From positions 1 to 64,000 of the forward strand of contig NZ_AUMH01000001.1 in NCBI RefSeq assembly GCF_000430585.1: a DNA stretch of 64,000 nucleotides, in the 5' to 3' direction. This document shows, piece after piece, positions 47,663 to 53,418 of this stretch. The position numbers were made by a program, and so were the translations under genes. The notes beneath the pieces were generated by a model. It did not search any database and had not been told where the DNA came from. It saw nothing but the letters and a program-made list of their open reading frames with translations. Position 1 is the first letter of the stretch, and each line of letters starts with the position of its first letter. The stretch comes from Alicyclobacillus herbarius DSM 13609. Its GTDB lineage: Bacteria; Bacillota; Bacilli; Alicyclobacillales; Alicyclobacillaceae.

Positions 47663-47732
47663 CGTCCCGTTTTGGCACCTATAACTGTCCATGCCCATAT
47701 GTTTAGATAGGCGGGTTTCGGGAGGTGTGGGC

Positions 47733-48650
47733 GTGGACGGTGTACATTGGACCGATTGGTTGCGCAAGTCCTTATTGGAACGGGTCGAAAAGCCCCGCAT
47801 CGCGGGTTTGACCTTGGTCATTGACGACGGTATGACTTCCTCCCGGATGCGTGAGTGTCTACAGATAACCGCTGAATGGATTGATTTTTGGATGCTGTCC
47901 GGGTGTCACGCGGCGATGCACGCGCCGGGGTGGCTGATGGATAAAGTTTGTCTCTGTCAGGAGTATGGGGTGTTGCCCTGTCCCAGCGGTCAAGCGTTTG
48001 CGGCCGCCTTACGCGCGGATGCCCTGAGTGCGTATATCACCGCGTTGGCTGAGAGTGGTCTGCGGTCCGTCCTAATGGCCGATGCAGAGGGGAGGCTTTC
48101 CCCACGGGTACGACGGGATGTCATTCGGCGGGCGCACGGTCAGGGCTTGCTCGTGTTTGCCGAGTTGTCGCACCACAACGGACACCTCACTCATCCGGAT
48201 GAGGTCATCCGTCAGGTGCACAGCGACTTGCAGGCAGGGGCAGATTATCTCCTCCTGCCGTTGCCCAGTTGGCCGCAGGGAGGGCGGGAAGCCGAGTGGA
48301 TGGTTGAGAAACAGCGCCTTGTAGAAATCATGGAGGCCATGGGGCCCTTACAGAATCGGCTAATCTTAAAGACTCGCAACCCTCTTCTCCAGCTCCGTCT
48401 CGTGGAGGAGCTGGGCGGCAAGCTCAACCTGGCGGATGTCAATCCCGAAACCGTCACGCTCTTAGAGGCGCTCAGACGGGGGATGAATCCCGATTGGGTG
48501 TGGCCGGAGCGAGAGGTTACGCATCCCGAGGATGCGGAGGGTACGTTCTCGCCACCACGAAAGCAAGCGGCGGCTGACGGCGGTCATTCGTCGACCGGTC
48601 CGGTCATTTGGCTCGATGGCCGCCGGGGAACGAACGGTCGTCGCCGGTGA
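47733..48650 (+). CDS. ComA-like (phosphosulfolactate synthase family) protein, divergent
   Basis: A 305-residue protein that follows the ComA layout: GLTLVIDDGM (usually GLTMVIDKG), IDFWMLSGCHAAM, CQEYGVLPCPSGQAF (usually YGVYVYPGGTLFE), then a TIM-barrel-like run to FAELSHHNG. ComA condenses PEP and sulfite to phosphosulfolactate. Here the DKG lysine is aspartate, and the EISDG stretch reads MADAEG, so the same reaction is doubtful. The last 50 residues are a basic, disordered-looking tail. The GTG start was chosen because GGGAGGTG precedes it. Its partner is the FolC-like ligase. Confidence 0.6.
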   Translation: MDGVHWTDWLRKSLLERVEKPRIAGLTLVIDDGMTSSRMRECLQITAEWIDFWMLSGCHAAMHAPGWLMDKVCLCQEYGVLPCPSGQAFAAALRADALSAYITALAESGLRSVLMADAEGRLSPRVRRDVIRRAHGQGLLVFAELSHHNGHLTHPDEVIRQVHSDLQAGADYLLLPLPSWPQGGREAEWMVEKQRLVEIMEAMGPLQNRLILKTRNPLLQLRLVEELGGKLNLADVNPETVTLLEALRRGMNPDWVWPEREVTHPEDAEGTFSPPRKQAAADGGHSSTGPVIWLDGRRGTNGRRR

Positions 48651-48729
48651 GAACGTGTCACTGTCGATGAACGGGTGAATGGGTGGCCGCCGACAGGTGT
48701 ATCGACCCAGCTTGATTGAGGGCGACTCG

Positions 48730-48767
48730 AGAGACGGAGAAAAATTCTCTTGTCTCTTCATTTTTTC
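48730..48767 (+). terminator. Terminator after the ComA-like gene
   Basis: AGAGAC...GTCTCT with inner AGAA/TTCT pairs forms an interrupted stem, followed by TTCATTTTTTC. It lies 80 bases after the stop codon. Confidence 0.65.
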
Positions 48768-48838
48768 GGCATAATTCGAGAGAATGAGGTGTATGGTTCA
48801 CTATAAGCGCAATCGTTCTGATGTGAACCCGTTACTTT

Positions 48839-48860
48839 GTCCGGAAACGTGTTTCCGGAC
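48839..48860. promoter_or_regulatory. 22-bp perfect palindrome upstream of the ali/bad operon
   Basis: Arms GTCCGGAAAC and GTTTCCGGAC meet at a central GT, with no spacer. It lies 101 bases before the aliA-like start and is followed by no T-run, so it is best read as a regulator binding site. No regulator gene for it is seen nearby. Confidence 0.75.
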
Positions 48861-48961
48861 CCGCACTTAAACGTCGCACTCAGGCATTTAGCTCCGGGCC
48901 GCACGCCCTGTGGCGGGCGATTTCGTGCCCAACTCGCAGCGCCATTCGGAGGTGTTCGCAC

Positions 48962-50593
48962 GTGCAAACGTGGTGGTTCCATCACACAGCCGCAGACCGC
49001 GAGGCGTATCGCCGCGAGGGCCATTGGCCAGACAAGACGGCATGCGATTTTCTCGACGATGCGGTGCAGCGATTGCCGGACAAGGTCGCGATTTTGGATT
49101 CGTTGTACGCCTACACGTATCGGGAACTGGCCGATAAGGTTCGTCGCGTGGCATTCGGGCTGCTGGAGATGGGCATCCGGCCAGGGGATGTGGTCTCTTT
49201 CCAGTTGCCCAACTGGTGCGAATGGGTCATTTTGCACTACGCCTGTTCCCGCATTGGTGCTATCTCCAATCCCCTCATCCCCATTTATCGCGGCCGCGAG
49301 CTGGAGGTGATGCTCCGCCAGGCGCAGCCGAAGCTTCTTGTGATTCCGAAGCAGTTTCGTGGCTTTGACTATGTCCAGATGGTGCGCGACCTTTCTTCGC
49401 GCATTCCGCTGACCGACAAGGTGTTGGTCGTCGGCAGAACGGAGCCTGACAGTTGGGAATCGTTTTTGGAACACGCATACGAGGAGGGGCGAACAGATCA
49501 AGAATTGGAGCCCTACCGGCCGTCGCCGGATGACCCCACGGAACTCATCTTCACTTCGGGGACGACCGGCATGCCGAAGGGGGTGATACACACCCATAAC
49601 ACCCTGAATGGACCGATTGTCGCCTGGGCAAAGCGGATGGGCGTGCACACAGACGACGTCTTTCACATGGCATCCACCTTTGGCCACCAGACTGGGTTTC
49701 TCTACGGCGTTCGCCTGCCGACCATGCTTGGGGCAACCGCGGTCTATCAGGATGTGTGGAATGCGGAGGAGTTCGTCCGTTTGGTCGCAAAGCATCGCAT
49801 CAGTGTGACCAACGGGGCGACGCCATTTTTATACGACTTCATTCACGCGGTGGGTCTCCGTGATTTTGATGTCTCTTCGCTGCGGATTTGGGGCTGCTAC
49901 GGGGCTCCAATTCCGCGTCCAGTGATTCGCCAAGCACTCGACGTACTGCCAGACTGCAAGGTACTCGCCGGTTGGGGACAGACCGAAAACGCGTTGGTGA
50001 CCGTGACTCGACCCGACGATTCGGTTGATAAGTTGACATCGACGGACGGGATCGTCTTCCCCGGACTGAAGGTGCGCGTGGTCGATGGGAACGGCAACGT
50101 ATGTCCGCCTGGTCAAGAAGGGGACCTAGAGTGTCGTGGCGCCACATTGTTTGTCGGCTATCTCAATCAACCGGACTTGATGACCGAGTCGTTCACCCCG
50201 GACGGTTGGTTTCGAACGGGTGACCGGGCGGTCATGGATGCGGACGGTTACATCAAAATCACGGGTCGGTCGAAAGACATCATCATCCGCGGGGGTGAAA
50301 ACATTCCGGTCAGCTACCTGGAGGACGTGTTACACGAGCATCCGGACGTGCAGGCAGTCGCCCTGGTCGCCAAGCCGGACCCGCGCCTGCAGGAACGGGT
50401 CTGCGCCTTCATTGTGCAAAGACCAGGCAGCCAGCCTTTGTCCCTCTCCGACCTTCAGACGTTCCTCCGGGAAAAAGGGGTGTCCAAGCACTACTGGCCG
50501 GAGTTTGTCCGCGTTGTGGCGGAATTGCCGCGGACGCCGAGCGGCAAAATTCAAAAGTATAAGCTGCGCGAACAGTTGCTGGCGGAAGGGTAA
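48962..50593 (+). CDS. aliA: Acyl-CoA ligase, cyclohexanecarboxylate-CoA ligase-like (AliA)
   Basis: A 543-residue AMP-forming ligase. The ATP motif is FTSGTTGMPKGV near residue 200; GWGQTEN, the DGWFRTGDRAVMDADGY segment (GWFRTGD) and the C-terminal lysine motif PSGKIQKYKL are present. On its own the substrate would be open, but the three next genes match the dehydrogenase, BadH and BadI steps of cyclohexanecarboxylate breakdown, so it probably activates cyclohexanecarboxylate. The GTG start has GGAGG nine bases upstream. It is 32 bases from the next gene. Confidence 0.8.
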   Translation: MQTWWFHHTAADREAYRREGHWPDKTACDFLDDAVQRLPDKVAILDSLYAYTYRELADKVRRVAFGLLEMGIRPGDVVSFQLPNWCEWVILHYACSRIGAISNPLIPIYRGRELEVMLRQAQPKLLVIPKQFRGFDYVQMVRDLSSRIPLTDKVLVVGRTEPDSWESFLEHAYEEGRTDQELEPYRPSPDDPTELIFTSGTTGMPKGVIHTHNTLNGPIVAWAKRMGVHTDDVFHMASTFGHQTGFLYGVRLPTMLGATAVYQDVWNAEEFVRLVAKHRISVTNGATPFLYDFIHAVGLRDFDVSSLRIWGCYGAPIPRPVIRQALDVLPDCKVLAGWGQTENALVTVTRPDDSVDKLTSTDGIVFPGLKVRVVDGNGNVCPPGQEGDLECRGATLFVGYLNQPDLMTESFTPDGWFRTGDRAVMDADGYIKITGRSKDIIIRGGENIPVSYLEDVLHEHPDVQAVALVAKPDPRLQERVCAFIVQRPGSQPLSLSDLQTFLREKGVSKHYWPEFVRVVAELPRTPSGKIQKYKLREQLLAEG

Positions 50594-50625
50594 GTGAGAC
50601 CTTCCGTGCGGAGGGAGAGACCCGC

Positions 50626-51777
50626 TTGGACTTTTCTCTCAGCGAGGAGCAGCGCTTATTCCAATCGACCATCCGCCGTTTCGCGCAAACGGAAATCGCG
50701 CCGTTCTACACTACGTGGGAGCGGCGCGACGAGTTTCCACAACGCCTTTGGCGGCGGATGTCGCAGATGGGCCTGACCAGTCTGCGGGTTGATGAGGCGT
50801 ACGGGGGTGTAGAGGCAGACGCGGTCACCACCGGTCTGGCCGTGGAGGCGATTGCCTATTGCGACTTTAACTGCGCCTATGCGGTGGTGCTCTCGGCGCT
50901 CATCGGGGAAATCCTCAATCGACACGCCGCACCTAGATTGAAGGAACAGTGGCTGCCTGGATTGTGCGACGGATCGATCCGGATGTGCATCGCGTTAACG
51001 GAGCCTGAGGCGGGGTCCGATGCGGCTGCCGTGCGCACCCAGGCGGTGGTCGACGGCGAGGATTTCATTCTCGACGGCGAAAAGGCGTCCGTCAGCCTGG
51101 CGATGCATGCGAATGCCGCCCTCGTCTTTGTCCGGACACTGCCGAACGCCAGAGCGCGCGGTATCAGCGCGCTGGTCGTACCGTTGGATACACCGGGTAT
51201 CCAGCGCCGGCGCTACGACGACATGGGGAACCGACCGGTTGGTAGGGGGTCCCTGGTGTTTGAATCGGTGCGGGTTCCGCGCGGGAATCTGGTCGGTACC
51301 CTGCACACAGGCTTTCAACAAGTGATGAACGGGTTTGACCTCAGCCGCTTGTTGATTGCCTTGCAGTGTCTGGCAGCCGCTCAGGCGAGTCTCGACGAAA
51401 CTCGGGATTATGTCCTGCAGCGCAAGGCGTTTGGACGCGTCTTGTCCAGCTTTCAAGGGGTTAGTTTTCCTTTTGTCGAGCAGCAGAGTTACGTAGAGAT
51501 GGCGAGGCTGGCGTGTTATCACGGTTTGTGGCTTAGGGATCAGGGACGGCCGCACACGAAAGAGGCGGCGATGATGAAGTGGCTTGGACCCAGCATTGCC
51601 CGCGAGGCGATTCATACTGCGCTCATCCTGCATGGGCATACCGGTTACAGCCGTGACTTGCCGCTCGAGCAGCGGCTGCGTGACGTGATTGGACTGGAGA
51701 TTGGCGACGGTACGCCACAGATTCAGAAGCTGGTGTTGGCAAGGGCATGGTTCGGCCGTGATCGCGGGCCGCACTAG
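50626..51777 (+). CDS. aliB: Acyl-CoA dehydrogenase, cyclohexanecarboxyl-CoA dehydrogenase-like (AliB)
   Basis: A 383-residue acyl-CoA dehydrogenase: FSLSEEQRLFQSTIRRFA at the start, CIALTEPEAGSDAA for FAD and substrate contact, and RKAFGRVLSSFQG. The motif that normally holds the catalytic base glutamate (YEGTxxIQ) reads GDGTPQIQ, putting an aspartate at residue 361. The start is TTG with GGAGG 11 bases upstream. Its place between the ligase and BadH-like genes suggests it makes cyclohex-1-ene-1-carboxyl-CoA. Electrons would go to an electron-transfer flavoprotein outside the window. Confidence 0.82.
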   Translation: MDFSLSEEQRLFQSTIRRFAQTEIAPFYTTWERRDEFPQRLWRRMSQMGLTSLRVDEAYGGVEADAVTTGLAVEAIAYCDFNCAYAVVLSALIGEILNRHAAPRLKEQWLPGLCDGSIRMCIALTEPEAGSDAAAVRTQAVVDGEDFILDGEKASVSLAMHANAALVFVRTLPNARARGISALVVPLDTPGIQRRRYDDMGNRPVGRGSLVFESVRVPRGNLVGTLHTGFQQVMNGFDLSRLLIALQCLAAAQASLDETRDYVLQRKAFGRVLSSFQGVSFPFVEQQSYVEMARLACYHGLWLRDQGRPHTKEAAMMKWLGPSIAREAIHTALILHGHTGYSRDLPLEQRLRDVIGLEIGDGTPQIQKLVLARAWFGRDRGPH

Positions 51778-51815
51778 CTGAGACCACAGACGAAGTGAGG
51801 CGGGGGTGAGGCCGA

Positions 51816-52562
51816 ATGCAGGCCAAGGTGGCTGTGGTCACCGGCAGCGGTCAGGGGATTGGCCGGGCCATTGCGTGGCGATTGGCGGATAGAGGTCTGG
51901 CGGTGGTCATCGCAGACGTCGACCCGGACCTGGCCGCGGGCACTGCGGCGGAGATTCGCGCGGCGGGTGGTGAAGCCTTGGCCCAGGCGTGCGATGTCTG
52001 CCGAACCGCGGATGTCGTGCGCACGCGAGATGTGGTGTTGGAGCGGTTTGGGCGTTGGGACGTCCTGGTCAACAACGCGGGATGGGACAAAGTCGAGCCG
52101 TTTCTGGAAAGTGAGGAGCAGACTTGGCGGCGCGTCCTGGAGGTCAACCTCTTAGGCACCATCCGCTGCACGCATCAGGCGCTGCCCGTGATGATGAAGG
52201 CCGGATATGGCCGAATTGTCAATATTGGCTCCGATGCGGGACGCGTCGGATCGACGGGGGAAGCGGTGTATTCCGCCGCGAAGGGAGGAATCATCGCGTT
52301 TACAAAAACGATTGCACGAGAAATGGCGCAGCACGGCATTACGGCCAACACAGTCTGCCCAGGGCCCACCCAGACCGCCCTGCTGCAGGACGTAGCTGCG
52401 GCCAATCCACGCTTGGTAGAGGCCATGACCAAGGCGGTCCCGATGCGCCGCCTGGGAGAACCTGACGACATCGCGGCCGCTGTGTCATTTCTCATTTCCG
52501 AGGACGCGGGTTACATCACGGGGCAAACGCTAAGCGTGAGCGGGGGTCTGACCATGTGTTAG
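51816..52562 (+). CDS. badH: 2-hydroxycyclohexanecarboxyl-CoA dehydrogenase (BadH-like SDR)
   Basis: A 248-residue classical SDR. TGSGQGIG binds the cofactor, NNAGWD follows, and the catalytic set is S139, Y152 and K156 (GEAVYSAAKGG). The stretches NNAGWD, GRIVNIGSDAGRVGS, TVCPGPTQTALL and the end TLSVSGGLTM closely follow BadH of Rhodopseudomonas as I recall it. BadH oxidises 2-hydroxycyclohexanecarboxyl-CoA to the 2-keto form with NAD. The next gene encodes the BadI-like ring-opening enzyme 13 bases downstream. Confidence 0.87.
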   Translation: MQAKVAVVTGSGQGIGRAIAWRLADRGLAVVIADVDPDLAAGTAAEIRAAGGEALAQACDVCRTADVVRTRDVVLERFGRWDVLVNNAGWDKVEPFLESEEQTWRRVLEVNLLGTIRCTHQALPVMMKAGYGRIVNIGSDAGRVGSTGEAVYSAAKGGIIAFTKTIAREMAQHGITANTVCPGPTQTALLQDVAAANPRLVEAMTKAVPMRRLGEPDDIAAAVSFLISEDAGYITGQTLSVSGGLTMC

Positions 52563-52575
52563 GGGGCCAGGCAAA

Positions 52576-53418
52576 TTGGCTTTTACGGATATCCTCTACA
52601 CCAAGTCGGAAGGCATTGCGACGGTCACCATCCATCGACCACACGTTTTGAACGCCTTTCGGGCGCAGACGGTGGCGGAGATGATTGAGGCGTTTGCGGA
52701 CGCGTGGACGGATCGGGAAATCGGTGTGGTCGTCTTGACCGGTGCTGGCGACAAGGCGTTTTGTGTGGGTGGTGACCAAAAGGAACGTGGAGCTACGGGC
52801 ACGAACTATGGAGGGCACAGCCGGAGCGAATTGGGGTTGGATATTGAGGACTTGCATGCGCTCATTCGCAACATTCCAAAACCAGTCATTGCGGCGGTCA
52901 ACGGCTACGCCATCGGTGGCGGTCACGTTCTGCATGTGGTGTGCGATTTGAGCATCGCGTCCAATCAGGCTGTCTTTGGCCAGGTGGGTCCCCGCGTGGG
53001 CTCGGTCGATCCAGGCTATGGCACGGCCTATTTGGCGCGTGTTGTCGGTGAGAAAAAGGCGCGCGAAATCTGGTACTTGTGTCGACGATACACGGCGGCG
53101 GAGGCCCTGCAGATGGGTTTAGTCAACCAGGTGGTGGCGCACGCCGATTTATACGCGGAGGTGCGGAAGTGGTGCGACGAGATTCTTGATAAAAGCCCCA
53201 CCGCGTTAAAGCTCGCCAAGTACTCGTTTAACGCGGATACCGCGCATATTGGCGGGATCGCCCAGCTGGGGATGAGCGCCGTCGGCTTGTATTACGGAAC
53301 AAGGGAGGCGATGGAAGGCAACCGGGCGTTTATCGAGAAACGGCACGTCAATTTCCGCCAGTTCCGCCGCTGGCCAAGTGCGGCGCAAGGTCCATCGACG
53401 ACGGAAGAGGAGACCTAA
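52576..53418 (+). CDS. badI: 2-ketocyclohexanecarboxyl-CoA hydrolase (BadI-like)
   Basis: A 280-residue crotonase-fold enzyme. GAGDKAFCVGGDQ and AVNGYAIGGGHVL form the oxyanion regions, and GQVGPRVGSVDPGYGTAYL continues directly into ARVVGEKKAREIWYLCRRY, a run that nearly matches BadI and the related MenB enzymes. BadI opens the ring of 2-ketocyclohexanecarboxyl-CoA with water to give pimeloyl-CoA. The TTG start has AGGGGG nine bases upstream. The C-terminus is extended by about 15 hydrophilic residues. MenB is less likely because of the BadH neighbour. Confidence 0.87.
   Translation: MAFTDILYTKSEGIATVTIHRPHVLNAFRAQTVAEMIEAFADAWTDREIGVVVLTGAGDKAFCVGGDQKERGATGTNYGGHSRSELGLDIEDLHALIRNIPKPVIAAVNGYAIGGGHVLHVVCDLSIASNQAVFGQVGPRVGSVDPGYGTAYLARVVGEKKAREIWYLCRRYTAAEALQMGLVNQVVAHADLYAEVRKWCDEILDKSPTALKLAKYSFNADTAHIGGIAQLGMSAVGLYYGTREAMEGNRAFIEKRHVNFRQFRRWPSAAQGPSTTEEET

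Follow-up and report, generated by a model that had tools for sequence, protein, structure and literature searches.

The closest described systems to the genes reported here are the bad-ali clusters of Rhodopseudomonas palustris and Aromatoleum sp. CIB, which carry AliA, AliB, BadH and BadI homologues for the catabolism of cyclohexanecarboxylate (CHC) through its coenzyme A (CoA) thioester. In Aromatoleum sp. CIB, deletion of badHI is reported to abolish both aerobic and anaerobic growth on CHC, and many bad-ali clusters are described as lacking badK (PMC9795900). A related route is encoded by the mrc genes of Castellaniella defragrans; compared with the Azoarcus sp. KH32C proteins, MrcD is given as 85% identical to BadH and MrcE as 88% identical to BadI (PMC4109377; the Mrc enzyme names are also given in PMC5876002). 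Here, we describe four neighbouring genes, all on the + strand at 48962–53418, in a stretch of 64,000 nucleotides from Alicyclobacillus herbarius DSM 13609 (contig NZ_AUMH01000001.1, positions 1 to 64,000; the whole stretch is referred to as the window). Judged from their sequences, the four genes probably constitute one operon for the CoA-dependent catabolism of a cyclohexane-type carboxylic acid.

The genes are arranged in the order aliA-aliB-badH-badI and are separated by gaps of 32, 38 and 13 bp. Their GC contents are 58–63%, and that of the window is 58.2%. The proteins of the window were searched against 18950 NCBIfam models. As proposed by the initial annotation, the best match of each of the four products is the corresponding model of the CHC pathway (Table 1); the ligase model is the best of 108 families and the BadH model is the best of 228, with FabG next at 247.7 bits. 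All four homologues by which a bad-ali CHC cluster is recognised, AliA, AliB, BadH and BadI, are found clustered here, and it seems hard to explain by chance that four neighbours each match the correct member of one pathway.

Table 1. Coordinates of the operon genes and of the repeats upstream of them (positions in the window; aa, amino acids).
Feature	Position	Strand	Description	Best NCBIfam match, bits/cut-off	Predicted product
aliA-like acyl-CoA ligase	48962..50593	+	543 aa; GTG start; PF00501 + PF13193	TIGR03208 cyclohexanecarboxylate-CoA ligase, 556.9/792.3	predicted CHC (or cyclohexenecarboxylate) CoA ligase
aliB-like acyl-CoA dehydrogenase	50626..51777	+	383 aa; TTG start; IGDGT motif	TIGR03207 cyclohexanecarboxyl-CoA dehydrogenase, 426.9/575.35	
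badH-like short-chain dehydrogenase/reductase (SDR)	51816..52562	+	248 aa; ATG start	TIGR03206 BadH, 295.2/431.2	predicted 2-hydroxycyclohexanecarboxyl-CoA dehydrogenase
badI-like crotonase-fold hydrolase	52576..53418	+	280 aa; TTG start	TIGR03210 BadI, 389.3/467.6	predicted 2-ketocyclohexanecarboxyl-CoA hydrolase, ring-opening enzyme
Perfect inverted repeat	48839..48860		10-bp arms, 2-nt spacer: GTCCGGAAAC-GT-GTTTCCGGAC		
Inverted repeat GGTTCAC/GTGAACC	48795..48829		21-nt spacer; read from the sequence		

In the proposed pathway, AliA would convert CHC, CoA and ATP to the CoA thioester, and AliB would introduce a 1,2 double bond into cyclohexanecarboxyl-CoA. Water would be added by a crotonase-type hydratase encoded outside the operon. 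BadH would oxidize the 2-hydroxyl group to a ketone, and BadI would open the ring hydrolytically (retro-Dieckmann) to give pimeloyl-CoA, whose breakdown may be completed by ordinary β-oxidation. Direct support comes from the gene identities given by the profiles, the active-site residues, the compact same-strand layout and the co-occurrence of the genes across Bacillota. The identity of the substrate, the individual reactions, the co-transcription of the genes and the choice of crotonase for the hydration are inferred.

The window AliB has a characteristic catalytic position. In acyl-CoA dehydrogenases with an IYEGT-type motif, the Glu of the motif is the catalytic base. Other acyl-CoA dehydrogenases mostly read IYEGT, whereas the window AliB reads IGDGT; its Asp361, which is preceded by Gly360, is the predicted base and occupies the alignment column of the motif Glu in two solved proteins, the short-chain acyl-CoA dehydrogenase 1jqi and CarC 6fah. 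Matches covering less than 85% of AliB were excluded, which removes the AliB remnants described below; Asp after Gly or Ala was then found at the base position in 87 of 87 distinct sequences of the AliB clade and in none of 43 other dehydrogenases. Among these 43, 35 carry an EGT-type motif and 8 neither motif (some of the 8 are incomplete). The clade was taken as all sequences with at least 43% identity to the window AliB, a line drawn after the list was seen, and the Asp-after-Gly/Ala marker was defined in the present analysis, not in the literature. The residue before the base, usually Tyr, is Gly in the window AliB; in enzymes for α-substituted substrates, including cyclohexane-1-carbonyl-CoA, this residue is described as smaller (Phe, Leu or Val, and Gly in ThnO; PMC11659651). 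Genes annotated as aliB on Paraburkholderia and Marinobacter plasmids carry the same motif as the window AliB, which forms a long branch beside 44 other Bacillota AliB in a quick tree restricted to the best 75 rows (Shimodaira–Hasegawa-like approximate likelihood ratio test, 92). A catalytic Asp has reportedly been found in CHC-CoA dehydrogenases, but this is not used as evidence here.

The BadI call of the initial annotation was based on a long motif run, and this run is real: both GSVDPGYGT and ARVVGEKKAREIWY are letter-identical in the annotated badI of the Paraburkholderia aromaticivorans plasmid pBN3. However, the second stretch is diagnostic only in part; the solved MenB-type protein 2iex reads ARIVGHKKAREIWY at this position. 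According to the initial annotation, the call would be overturned if the closest characterised relatives were MenB or ordinary enoyl-CoA hydratases and activity on ring substrates were lacking; on the sequence side, this objection does not apply. In our 80-row tree, 18 MenB rows form one clade with support of 100/99, which excludes every BadI-like row, the window protein included. Twelve columns that discriminate between MenB and BadI were derived from 18 MenB and 10 proteobacterial BadI sequences. The window protein is BadI-like at eight of them, MenB-like at one (the Arg91 equivalent) and neither at three; other Bacillota BadI, the window's three nearest relatives apart, are BadI-like at 4–6 and MenB-like at 2–6. 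Asp145, the counterpart of Asp163 in Escherichia coli MenB, is retained. Among the 41 genomes of the family (the window's included), 40 have a match at E ≤ 1e-30; in 14 of the 41 a protein reaches at least 66% identity with the window BadI. The MenB-like proteins fall into a second group, at 55–59%. Approximately unbiased (AU) tests were performed on a 78-row quick tree, from which the BadK outgroup and the Rhodococcus row were dropped. Joining the window group to other Bacillota BadI was not rejected (p 0.654) and gave the higher likelihood. Horizontal acquisition of BadI from proteobacteria was dropped for this reason, although the trees hint at it: the grouping has support of 94/74 in the 80-row tree and, in the best quick tree, 88, which is not decisive. 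The window protein thus appears to stand outside the MenB clade, while the AU tests leave its deep placement unfixed. Taken together, the profiles, the AliB Asp, the exclusion from the MenB clade and the discriminating columns support, at the level of sequence, the gene identities and the ring-opening chemistry that had been proposed.

To follow the distribution of the cluster, named genomes were scanned with the AliB alignment, which gave 219 relatives; the best 80 loci were taken. These comprise 42 Bacillota, 22 Pseudomonadota, 8 Rokuibacteriota, 4 Nitrospinota, 2 Myxococcota, 1 Tectimicrobiota and 1 Thermodesulfobacteriota, and the ranking, made by similarity to a Bacillota query, is biased toward Bacillota. 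All four genes are present on the fetched stretch in 33 of these 80 loci, including 31 of the 42 in Bacillota and 2 of the 22 in Pseudomonadota. The bit-score limits of this count were set by us, and it covers stretches of up to ∼17 kb, on which the genes are not always adjacent and some of which end at contig ends. The cluster occurs in many Bacillaceae. The one Bacillota cluster annotated and scored besides the window's is that of Bacillus sp. DNRA2 (L105), which begins with genes for an acyl-CoA dehydrogenase, a DUF3870 protein, an unknown protein and a sigma-54 activator. AliB, BadI, AliA and BadH follow in this order, different from that in the window, and the cluster continues with a thiolase, a 3-hydroxyacyl-CoA dehydrogenase, an acyl-CoA dehydrogenase and an enoyl-CoA hydratase. 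The four families are the same as in the window; the β-oxidation genes and the sigma-54 activator indicate a catabolic role. The L105 cluster has the look of a full catabolic unit and hints at the functions that the window operon may obtain from other parts of its genome.

Several findings weigh against the assignment of the window operon to CHC catabolism. None of the four proteins reaches the curated equivalog cut-off of its model; therefore, we do not claim equivalog status for them, only that they may work like these enzymes. A profile search of the neighbours recognised no regulator or lower-pathway gene beside the operon, and a consensus scan of 48600–49000 gave neither a + strand promoter nor a terminator. 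There is no BadK within the four-gene operon, and the genome search gave no clear one: among ten crotonase matches, the window BadI and MenB included, the best is 40% identical to proteobacterial BadK, the same level as other hydratases. Judged by translations, the neighbours of this crotonase gene are thiolase-like and FAH-like. The protein 7xp7, a solved cyclohexanecarboxyl-CoA dehydrogenase by name, is distant from the window AliB (154 bits, compared to 226 for the best match), as is the model NF043006 (cyclohexane-1-carbonyl-CoA dehydrogenase; 179.1 bits). On the BadI side, the nearest solved structures are MenB. At the position of Arg91, an essential residue of MenB, the window protein also has Arg, whereas the consensus of the proteobacterial BadI used here is His; and the AU test did not reject a union of the window group with the MenB side (p 0.376). 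In Bacillus sp. DNRA2, the two MenB models give the BadI-like protein (L105:9195-10013) 374.4 bits (cut-off 380) and 357.4 bits (cut-off 342.7), more than the 341.5 bits of the BadI model, which speaks against a plain BadI label in that cluster; both AliB and BadI of this cluster are also under their curated equivalog cut-offs. As this BadI-like protein exceeds the menB cut-off of TIGR01929, the key enzyme could be mislabelled by annotation.

The latter points would fit a BadI-like protein that is in fact a second MenB, with generic fatty acid genes as neighbours, and so would the small margin of the BadI model (389.3 bits) over the MenB model NF005637 (365.9 bits). However, besides its exclusion from the MenB clade, the window protein has no men-gene context and is under the cut-offs of both MenB models (341.4 against 342.7 and 365.9 against 380 bits). 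A separate MenB-like gene, 59% identical to it, is located on contig C3 next to menE-like and menA-like genes, both recognised from translation, and this gene, not the one in the operon, is the main MenB candidate of the cell. With the eight BadI-like columns and a linkage to AliB that recurs across Bacillota, we consider a second MenB very unlikely. Another question concerns the substrate. Of the 14 family genomes bearing the BadI, nine have a full-length AliB and five have no intact copy. AliA, BadH and BadI are present and AliB is missing in G021, G022 and G035; the first two, congeners of the window strain, match the window on both flanks but lack 50590–51816. AliB remnants stand beside full-length BadI and BadH in G015 (L075:9704-9826, residues 342–382 only) and G032 (L080:11105-11560, residues 177–328 only), which suggests repeated loss. 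AliB is dispensable within the family, and CHC may therefore not be the common substrate, a further point against the assignment. It is possible, though we would not favour it, that a core of ligase, BadH and BadI serves cyclohexene-type acids in which the double bond is already present, such as monoterpene-derived perillate, and that AliB is an add-on extending the range to saturated CHC in the window strain and some relatives. When the five genomes without intact AliB were searched for a substitute dehydrogenase, the best match reached 263 bits, compared to 427 for the window AliB; and in the scheme given for Castellaniella, perillyl-CoA is proposed to be opened via MrcF, MrcD and MrcE with no prior dehydrogenation (PMC4109377). 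On the other hand, AliB is full-length in most of the BadI-bearing genomes, and a different dehydrogenase could perform its step. For the AliB-less relatives themselves, it is reasonable to propose a cyclohexene-type substrate. All 80 named loci were retrieved by AliB and are silent on AliB-less operons. More tentatively still, the ring-opening operon of Bacillota might be modular, with a core for cyclohexene-type acids (such as perillate from plant terpenes) and an AliB cassette whose gain or loss toggles the use of saturated rings between sister species. The existence of sister species with and without AliB amounts to a natural experiment on the range of ring acids accepted by the core.

The initial annotation had suggested, as an inference, another role for the operon, in which pimeloyl-CoA would be recovered from the ring of omega-cyclohexyl fatty acids of the membrane. 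The window genome comes from the family of Alicyclobacillus, and omega-cyclohexane acids are listed for 12 of 22 Alicyclobacillus species (PMC5023266). However, the presence of the cluster in many Bacillaceae does not fit this role, and 8 of the 15 genomes of g2, a genus that includes Alicyclobacillus species, lack the BadI. To our knowledge, omega-cyclohexyl lipids have not been reported from Bacillaceae. β-Oxidation of such lipids should release the ring as a CoA thioester, for which AliA would be needless; AliA thus points to a free acid. The lipid link is unlikely; it is not supported, and the reading of the operon as a catabolic unit for a ring acid does not need it. As the pathway ends in pimeloyl-CoA, and the window genome has BioB over the cut-off while BioW was not found, a supply of pimeloyl-CoA for biotin was also considered. 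This candidate was rejected as extremely improbable because no BioD match is present in the genome; moreover, none of the open reading frames around bioB, viewed by eye, resembles bioA, bioF or bioD (BioA and BioF were not searched genome-wide). With neither BioW nor BioD matched in its genome, the bioB gene itself (G000:C20:207-1121) perhaps belongs to a dethiobiotin scavenger.

The perfect palindrome that the initial annotation placed upstream of the operon is real (Table 1). Neither of the two congeners, G021 and G022, has it upstream of its orthologous aliA. With up to two mismatches, its core occurs at seven sites in the genome, that of the window included, and at none in the reversed control; three of the other six sites were viewed, of which one is within a coding sequence, one lies between rhamnose-type sugar genes and one follows an etfA-like gene (names from translations). 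As the palindrome is not conserved in the congeners and the near-copies viewed lie at unrelated genes or within a gene, the data do not support a role as a ring-specific operator. Three short palindromes between genes, at G000:C15:14150, C23:9130 and C1:48840, have the form TCCGGAAAnnnnTTTCCGGA, with a mismatch in one of them; the genes at these sites are unrelated. The arms of the GGTTCAC/GTGAACC repeat recur, conserved, ahead of aliA in each of the three genus members viewed (the window, G021 and G022), and this repeat is a candidate regulatory site. Directly upstream of the operon, a ComA-like gene (phosphosulfolactate synthase family) is located at 47691–48650; it scores 113.2 bits against a cut-off of 280.

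The pathway itself is ordinary, known mainly from proteobacteria and rhodococci, and the lineage is apparently new. No study of bad-ali genes in Bacillota was found among the papers listed from the open-licence literature, judged by titles and abstract openings; the window operon and its relatives would add many spore-formers to the proteobacteria and actinobacteria for which the pathway has been described. Like the bad-ali genes of Rhodopseudomonas palustris and Aromatoleum sp. CIB, as described in PMC9795900, the window genes are clustered and their predicted chemistry leads to pimeloyl-CoA. The gene order is different, badK, badR and the aab genes were not recognised nearby, the proteins are below the equivalog cut-offs, and the host belongs to Bacillota. 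The bad-ali clusters of Rhodococcus and Corynebacterium, as outlined in the same report, share with the window a Gram-positive host and the absence of badK from the cluster. In Castellaniella, according to the description in PMC4109377, the substrate is perillyl-CoA, the hydratase is MrcF, the ligase GeoC comes from outside the mrc cluster, and the acyl-CoA dehydrogenase of the cluster, MrcB, is not assigned to ring opening; oxidation and ring hydrolysis of BadH/BadI type are common to the mrc genes and the window operon.

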